From contig BDLO01000001.1 in NCBI GenBank assembly GCA_001950395.1, positions 1,153,979 to 1,217,978 on the forward strand: DNA of 64,000 nucleotides, in the 5' to 3' direction. The notes below the pieces were generated by a model. The model made no database searches and was not told the DNA's origin. It worked only from the letters and a program-made list of their open reading frames with translations. Below are positions 18,068 through 19,342 of this stretch, piece after piece (positions within the stretch are counted from its first letter, which is position 1; each line of letters begins with the position of its first letter). The translations under genes and the position numbers were made by a program. The stretch is from Coriobacteriaceae bacterium EMTCatB1. Its GTDB lineage: Bacteria > Actinomycetota > Coriobacteriia > Anaerosomatales > Anaerosomataceae.

Positions 18068-18733
18068 TCAGCCCCTGATGCGGACGGTCACGAACACGTG
18101 CCCCTCCCGGACCGTCACGGGATACGTGCGCACGTCGGCGTCAGGATGGTCGGTGGTGCCGTCGCGCACGTCGTACCGCCAGCCGTGCCACGGGCACATC
18201 ACGTGGTAGCCGTCTAGGAAGCCATCGGCGAGCGGCGCGAACGCGTGCCGGCACACGTTCGACAGCGCGAAGAACTCATCGCCGACACGCGCCACCGCGA
18301 TGTCGGCCTTGCCGACCTTCACGTGCCGGATCTGCCCCGGTGGCAGGTCTTCGACGCGGAAGACCGGCACCTCGACCTCGCCCGAAGGCTCTTCGATCAC
18401 CCCGAAAAGCTCGCTCCCGTCCTCGACCTCCTTGAGGACGAACAGGCCGCACCAGCACTTCTTGATGGCGGCGAACTCGTCGCGGTGGAACGGGATGCAG
18501 GGGCAGATGATCTTGACGTCCTCTTTGGGGTCGCCAGTCCGCACTCGGCAGGGGCAGTACACGTCGCCGGTCTGCTCGAGTATCTCGAGCTCGGATGTGA
18601 GCACGTCGTCGACGAACCAGCTCTCGGTGTTGAACTTGTAGCCGAGCCGGTCGACGAACGGACCCATGTACTCCTTGAGGTCCTCGATGGTCGTGCCGGG
18701 AGCGAATCGCCGGCGAACCCTCGGCTCGCTCAC
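18068..18733 (-). CDS. ferredoxin:thioredoxin reductase catalytic domain fused to a Rieske [2Fe-2S] domain
   Basis: This 221-residue protein has two redox domains. Residues about 15-105 match the FTR catalytic (beta) subunit: CPC at 60-62, CPC at 77-79 and CWC at 93-95. By analogy with plant FTR, C62 and C95 would form the active disulfide and C60, C77, C79 and C93 would hold a [4Fe-4S] cluster. The third motif has Trp where plant FTR has the His of CHC, and the spacings are 14 and 13 instead of 16 and 8. Residues about 125-221 are a Rieske domain: C161-x-H163 and C180-x2-H183. It starts at GTG 18733 and overlaps the glutaredoxin gene by 4 nt. The fusion suggests electrons pass from the Rieske centre to the FTR site and on to glutaredoxin (inference). 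Confidence 0.85.
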   Translation of the reverse strand: MSEPRVRRRFAPGTTIEDLKEYMGPFVDRLGYKFNTESWFVDDVLTSELEILEQTGDVYCPCRVRTGDPKEDVKIICPCIPFHRDEFAAIKKCWCGLFVLKEVEDGSELFGVIEEPSGEVEVPVFRVEDLPPGQIRHVKVGKADIAVARVGDEFFALSNVCRHAFAPLADGFLDGYHVMCPWHGWRYDVRDGTTDHPDADVRTYPVTVREGHVFVTVRIRG

Positions 18734-18981
18734 AGCCCGAGCTCCTCCTTGATGCGCTTCTTGTTGAACCCCACGATGACGCTGTCGTCGTCGATTACGA
18801 TGACCGGGAACGCGGTGCCGCCCGATATGCGGCGCACTTCGTCCACGGCGGCCTTGTACTCCTCGCCTTCGAGCTTGTCGACTTCGACCACGTCGTACTC
18901 GACGCCGTTCTCGTCGAGGTACGCGCGGGCGGCGCGGCAGTACGGGCACGTCGACAGCGCGTACACGAACACCTTGTGCAT
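18730..18981 (-). CDS. glutaredoxin-like protein (CPYC)
   Basis: This 83-residue thioredoxin-fold protein has active-site CPYC at residues 12-15, the cis-proline region GTAFPVIVIDD and a C-terminal GFNKKRIKEEL. The length fits bacterial glutaredoxins/NrdH-like proteins. It is the upstream partner of the FTR-Rieske gene, overlapping it by 4 nt, and is a likely substrate or carrier for it. Confidence 0.85.
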   Translation of the reverse strand: MHKVFVYALSTCPYCRAARAYLDENGVEYDVVEVDKLEGEEYKAAVDEVRRISGGTAFPVIVIDDDSVIVGFNKKRIKEELGL

Positions 18982-18991
18982 GACGCTCCTC

Positions 18992-19342
18992 CTATGCGGC
19001 GATGGGGGTCGGCTCGGCCTTCTCCTCTTCGATCTTGCGCCAGTGATACGCGTAGATGGGGCCGGCGATCACCACGAGCGCGATATTCCCGACCAGGTTG
19101 ATGATCGCCCAGCGGCGCGACTGCTGGCGGCCGATCTCCTGCTGGCGCTGCCACTCCTCTTCCGTCATCGCCGGCTGCCCGCCCTCCGTCTTCGGCAGCG
19201 GTTCCATCATCGTCGGCTCGGGGTACACGAGCTCGACGCCGCTTCGGATGACGCCGACGGCTCCGACGATGACCATGATGAGCGTGATCAGGCACACCAG
19301 GTACAGGTAGATGTTGCGGAGCGACCACTTCGAACTCGGCAT
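18992..19342 (-). CDS. small membrane protein with two TM helices, unknown
   Basis: This 116-residue protein has helix 1 at residues about 11-33, a soluble loop rich in Glu and Gln (EEEWQRQQEIGRQQSRR), helix 2 at about 78-97 and an acidic tail. It resembles small proteins of the DUF5671 sort, but I cannot confirm that family. ATG 19342 with AAGGAGA upstream is chosen over earlier in-frame codons. It precedes the glutaredoxin gene by 10 nt, so it is probably in the same transcript. Confidence 0.65.
   Translation of the reverse strand: MPSSKWSLRNIYLYLVCLITLIMVIVGAVGVIRSGVELVYPEPTMMEPLPKTEGGQPAMTEEEWQRQQEIGRQQSRRWAIINLVGNIALVVIAGPIYAYHWRKIEEEKAEPTPIAA

Follow-up and report, generated by a model that had tools for sequence, protein, structure and literature searches.

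A Rieske domain fused to an FDR-type FTR catalytic domain and encoded with a glutaredoxin in the order Anaerosomatales/OPB41

Introduction

Enzymes of the FTR family reduce disulfides via a 4Fe-4S cluster, and the part that attached metal domains play in feeding this cluster is unsettled. Plant and cyanobacterial FTRs have the cysteine pattern CPC-x16-CPC-x8-CHC. In the FDR branch, the enzyme studied in 2018 reportedly reduces methanoredoxin, a glutaredoxin-like partner, and its rubredoxin is said to have been only postulated to feed the 4Fe-4S cluster. The structure 4TPU represents this FDR of Methanosarcina acetivorans (Prakash et al. 2018, as cited in PMC7278568). A window of 64,000 nucleotides from Coriobacteriaceae bacterium EMTCatB1, the whole stretch of DNA analysed here, contains a related gene in which the metal domain is of a different kind. 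A preliminary description of the locus had measured it against FTR. The right comparison is FDR. There a rubredoxin is already built in, so the mere fusion of a redox domain is no novelty; what has changed is that a Rieske domain has replaced the rubredoxin.

Results

The fusion gene lies on the minus strand at positions 18068-18733, starts with GTG and encodes a single chain of 221 amino acids. Residues 16-106 (18416-18688, minus strand) match the Pfam family FeThRed_B (PF02943; E 1.2e-18, 67.5 bits against a cut-off of 22) and contain the motif C60PC62-x14-C77PC79-x13-C93WC95, so that both the profile match and the six cysteines of the CPC/CPC/CxC pattern place this half in the FTR catalytic domain superfamily. 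The second half (residues ~118-219; 18077-18382, minus strand) is a Rieske [2Fe-2S] domain that matches PF00355 over residues 122-204 (E 9.6e-20) and has the ligand motif C161-R-H163 followed by C180-P-W-H183, that is, the C-x-H and C-x2-H ligands of a Rieske ferredoxin in a Rieske fold. The fusion of the two domains and the completeness of the Rieske motif, both proposed from the first look at the sequence, are thus borne out. A 293-residue open reading frame listed from 18949 is a mere mechanical upstream extension of the 221-residue gene.

The fusion gene overlaps by 4 nt (18730-18733) with a glutaredoxin gene (18730-18981, minus strand, ATG start, 83 residues; PF00462, E 5.9e-17) that has its active site at C12-P-Y-C15, as had been described. 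The scores for all three Pfam families are far over the gathering cut-offs. Both starts are preceded by a strong Shine-Dalgarno sequence: AAGGAGGAG (18742-18750, minus strand) lies within the 3' end of the glutaredoxin gene, 8 nt ahead of the GTG of the fusion, and AGGAGGAG (18986-18993, minus strand) lies ahead of the glutaredoxin ATG and overlaps the stop codon of the gene upstream. This third gene (18992-19342, minus strand) encodes a small DUF5671 membrane protein (PF18920, E 4e-9) and stops some 10 nt short of the glutaredoxin gene, so the transcript probably comprises three genes. As a DUF5671 gene is adjacent in only 21 of 46 fusion loci by synteny count, its product is no obligatory partner.

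An AlphaFold2 model of the whole fusion chain reached a pLDDT of 92 and a pTM of 0.86 (pLDDT 89 for the FTR half modelled alone). The modelled FTR half matches the Grx/FDR fusion 7pwe from Desulfotalea best (Z 10.7, 102 residues, 3.0 Å), followed by M. acetivorans FDR 4tpu (Z 9.3, 101 residues, 3.2 Å), and stays under Z 8 with plant and cyanobacterial FTRs (1dj7, Z 7.9). Together with the x14 spacing, this identifies an FDR-type catalytic domain, and the CWC motif in place of CHC and the x14/x13 spacing rule out a plant-type FTR. The "altered spacing" of the preliminary description therefore holds against plant and cyanobacterial FTR but dissolves against the FDR class (x14, x12), from which the protein is one residue apart. 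What departs from FDR is the C-terminus, where a Rieske domain stands in place of the rubredoxin that is found in relatives. The modelled Rieske half superimposes closely on 2qpz (Z 19.2, 101 residues, 1.3 Å), matches dioxygenase-type Rieske ferredoxins and NirD at Z 16-19 (Rieske ferredoxins alone, Z 17-19), and is most like the Rieske ferredoxins of dioxygenases (1vck, 2qpz, HcaC-like). For the glutaredoxin, the nearest PDB sequences are 3nzn, 3ic4 and methanoredoxin 5cax, with the Grx half of 7pwe in fourth place. With its PF00462 match and CxxC active site it is a methanoredoxin/YruB-like glutaredoxin, although the label YruB is loose, since the match to TIGR02196 (59.5 bits) is below the equivalog cut-off of 88.6.

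A protein search covered 69 genomes of the order Anaerosomatales/OPB41 and found the FTR-Rieske chain in 58 of them, one of the 58 chains being truncated by a contig edge. When the same 69 genomes were searched with PF02943, every genome with a detected FTR domain carried the fusion. Loss of the Rieske ligands in close homologues had been named as a finding that would speak against the fusion; instead, all four ligands are invariant in 22 of 22 aligned members (64-90% identity to the window protein), as are the six FTR cysteines and W94. A motif-based genome scan, which is also the single source of coverage outside Actinomycetota, gave 46 fusion loci in named genomes. Nearly all of them are labelled Coriobacteriia, Actinobacteria/Actinomycetes or Anaerosomatales, and one (L114) has only 34% identity. 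A match in Polaromonas (L117) looks like chance, its frame not being a gene. Among the matches listed in a plasmid search the best were Rieske-only, and nowhere was 80% query coverage reached.

The glutaredoxin gene is directly upstream of the fusion in 45 of the 46 named loci, and the remaining locus ends at a contig end. The neighbouring genes, for a branched-chain amino acid transporter and for B12, differ by family; only the Grx-FTR pair is constant. Some families have a cysteine synthase gene downstream of the pair; because gene order is inconstant, we draw no functional link. Within its own 1.84-Mb genome the locus provides the only match to each of PF02943, PF00462 and PF00355. The genome encodes a full NADPH-type TrxB elsewhere, and other sequences in it match the pyridine-nucleotide reductase profile in part; a profile search of it found no MshC above cut-off.

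Across the phylum, PF02943 was found in 58 of 396 sampled genomes. From these we examined 30 FTR loci of other actinobacterial families, outside the order, and in all 30 a glutaredoxin gene is immediately upstream. Here the FTR bears one or two C-terminal rubredoxins (PF21349) or no extra domain, the latter in a single lineage (L139, L150, L157). Rieske and rubredoxin were never seen together on one FTR among the proteins compared. In one genome (L042/L128, positions 892-2134) the same parts are split into four near-overlapping separate genes for a Rieske protein, a glutaredoxin (CPWC), an FTR (CWC) and another Rieske protein. Domain type co-varies with several sequence features. The middle residue of the CxC motif is W in every fused Rieske protein and in the split FTR, Y with rubredoxin (CYC/CYU), F without extra domain and H in a separate paralogue; the second FTR spacer is x13 with Rieske and x12 otherwise; and the neighbouring glutaredoxin has a CPYC-type motif beside the Rieske form and mostly CxWC beside the rubredoxin form. 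Shared ancestry alone may suffice to explain this, rather than functional coupling. A tree built from 88 columns of 89 FTR domains, in which L114 and L042 form long branches, unites the fused Rieske proteins in one group (94/92) and places the split L042/L128 FTR as sister to that group (97/89).

Some members of the order have a second FTR-like paralogue (L036, L037, L038, L039) with the pattern CPC-x14-CPC-x12-CHC. It mostly carries a C-terminal extension of ~100 residues, has no Rieske or glutaredoxin gene beside it, and at some loci lies near genes that resemble 2-hydroxyacyl-CoA dehydratase activators. Two archaeal loci (L115, L116) encode stand-alone FTRs with CKC, beside which neither Rieske nor glutaredoxin was found.

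From homology to plant FTR, we take C60, C77, C79 and C93 to be the [4Fe-4S] ligands and C62-C95 to be the catalytic disulfide, with W94 between C93 and C95. This assignment is supported by relatives that have an in-frame UGA exactly at the position of C62 (one fusion homologue) or of C95 (five rubredoxin-type loci). The fusion homologue (L029, also recovered as L113; 1210-1845, minus strand), which is on a contig of low coverage, has TGA at the second cysteine of the first CPC (CPU) and, judging by its sequence, probably reads it as selenocysteine. A tRNA-Sec is present. After the TGA, the homologue reads RTGVYAED where its homologues have RTGDPKED, at the site of a bSECIS-like hairpin (16-nt spacing, GGCG-UGUA-CGCC) that is within the bSECIS limits quoted in PMC13188914. 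The folding energy downstream of the TGA is no lower than that of shuffled sequences. In-frame stops appeared in the matches of several relatives; in those inspected, they mostly result from the match overrunning the natural C-terminus, and L029/L113 is the exception.

The five rubredoxin-type loci (L136, L146, L149, L152, L153) are actinobacterial, have an adjoining glutaredoxin gene and carry the in-frame TGA at the last catalytic cysteine (CYU); several of the proteins bear two tandem rubredoxin domains. They are probably selenoprotein FDRs. Selenocysteine at the two redox-active cysteines of FTR has been reported (PMC2398784). The window genome has a tRNA-Sec gene (G000:C1:1720465-1720557, 74.8 bits), so it may make selenoproteins, though its own FTR-Rieske protein uses cysteine.

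Discussion

Together, these data lead us to propose, as the probable reading, that the protein is an FDR-branch disulfide reductase of a Rieske type, in which the Rieske domain replaces rubredoxin as the point of electron entry, ferredoxin is the simplest donor and the glutaredoxin is the substrate. Electrons would enter at the C-terminal Rieske [2Fe-2S] centre from a one-electron donor, in the simplest case ferredoxin reduced by pyruvate:ferredoxin oxidoreductase or hydrogenase. From there they would go singly to the catalytic [4Fe-4S] cluster, which would reduce the adjacent disulfide in two steps; C62 would then reduce disulfide C12-C15 in the glutaredoxin encoded alongside, and the reduced glutaredoxin would pass electrons on to client proteins. 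The Rieske domain would thereby fill the slot that rubredoxin has in other actinobacterial and methanogen FDRs, and its position most simply suggests rubredoxin's postulated role, the supply of single electrons to the 4Fe-4S cluster. The glutaredoxin was already suspected to be the likely substrate, and its place beside the FTR in all 30 loci examined outside the order and the natural Grx/FDR fusion 7PWE strengthen that suspicion. Two further expectations need correction. The built-in Rieske centre does not dispense with an external donor, since it is a relay that still needs one, and the pathway is not the cell's only thiol-reducing route, as TrxB is also present.

Those members of the order that have been cultivated live as obligate anaerobes by ferredoxin chemistry, possess pyruvate:ferredoxin oxidoreductase and lack complex III (PMC9686372). 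This favours ferredoxin as the donor. As no other Rieske domain was detected in the genome, the lack of complex III also means that the domain most likely serves the FTR; service to an oxygenase, a nitrite reductase or a bc1 complex is disfavoured on the same grounds.

Rieske ferredoxins of the dioxygenase type are usually near -150 mV and the FTR disulfide is at about -320 mV. Transfer from the Rieske centre to the [4Fe-4S] cluster would therefore be uphill, which is the main objection to the mechanism; rubredoxin in FDR faces it as well. Moreover, Rieske ferredoxins usually receive their electrons from NADH-linked flavoproteins, which makes ferredoxin as donor an assumption.

The same enzyme could accordingly be independent of ferredoxin, with an NAD(P)H-linked flavoprotein supplying the electrons to its Rieske domain, as happens in dioxygenase systems. 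As this is the normal reduction route for Rieske ferredoxins of this type, which the domain most resembles, we regard it as a serious alternative, if clearly the less probable one, and the partial pyridine-nucleotide reductase matches in the genome are consistent with it. The locus has no coupled flavoprotein gene, however, and the metabolism of these organisms runs on ferredoxin chemistry (PMC9686372). In its wider form, in which the Rieske domain links the [4Fe-4S] site of disulfide reduction to a flavoprotein or to some other donor of moderately low potential, we hold the proposal to be a tentative one of the same weight.

Less likely still, and in our view rather doubtful, is a Rieske domain that lies off the electron path altogether, as a sensor of oxidants (O2, NO or redox state) or as a docking or structural stand-in for the FTR variable subunit. 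The potential mismatch would fit such a role, and so would the lineage whose FTR lacks any extra domain, which shows that the extra domain is dispensable for FTR and glutaredoxin as such. Against it speak the invariance of the four ligands, the position in the rubredoxin slot and the mutual exclusion of the two domains. Reverse flow, in which glutaredoxin dithiols are oxidised and electrons exit via the Rieske centre to an acceptor (a thiol oxidase), would be favoured by a Rieske centre of relatively high potential; it is very improbable, because FTR/FDR chemistry is known as reductive, the fusion is the genome's only Rieske protein, and the hosts grown in culture lack complex III and are obligate anaerobes (PMC9686372). 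That two genes, which are indeed separate in L042, were joined through a frame error of assembly or annotation has a negligible probability and is ruled out by conservation in 58 genomes, 57 of them beyond our own and from many assemblies.

If the Rieske domain does feed the cluster from a flavoprotein or a comparable donor, it would be a third electron input for the FTR family, beside ferredoxin with the variable subunit and rubredoxin, and the type of metal domain would decide which donor is used. One catalytic core occurs naturally with a single rubredoxin, with two, with a fused or separate Rieske domain, or with no attached domain, always with glutaredoxin beside it in the actinobacterial loci examined, so that the ways of feeding the core can be compared directly. 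For the anaerobic order, the proposed FDR-branch reductase would provide a dedicated route to its single glutaredoxin, one that is possibly independent of low-molecular-weight thiols.

In the searchable open literature we found no description of an FTR paired with a Rieske domain, which is not proof that the pairing is undescribed. The finding is less exotic than at first look, since the FDR branch is already known to have metal domains built in and glutaredoxins as partners. It is nevertheless real, biologically coherent and better supported than could be known from the window alone. With M. acetivorans FDR (4TPU) the protein shares the FTR-type catalytic domain, the CPC-x14-CPC spacing and a one-electron metal domain at the C-terminus; it differs in having Rieske, CWC and x13 where the archaeal enzyme has rubredoxin, CYC and x12. 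In 7PWE of Desulfotalea psychrophila, which among solved structures is nearest to the FTR domain, glutaredoxin and FDR-type FTR likewise form a unit, but there the glutaredoxin is fused N-terminally and Rieske is absent, whereas here it is a separate overlapping gene and the Rieske domain is C-terminal. The actinobacterial operons of glutaredoxin and FTR with one or two rubredoxins (L129-L157) agree in gene order, partner and enzyme class and differ in their metal domain, in a glutaredoxin motif that is mostly CxWC instead of CPYC, and in the predicted selenocysteine (CYU) of some. Dioxygenase Rieske ferredoxins and NirD agree with the C-terminal domain in fold and ligand motif, but they are separate carriers that serve oxygenases or nitrite reductase, and the present locus is coupled to no such enzyme. 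Plant and cyanobacterial FTRs (1DJ7, 2PU9) share the catalytic fold and the six cysteines, but have a separate variable subunit, thioredoxin as substrate and no fused redox domain. The FTR-Rieske protein is thus a variant of FDR, and neither FDR itself nor a plant-type FTR.
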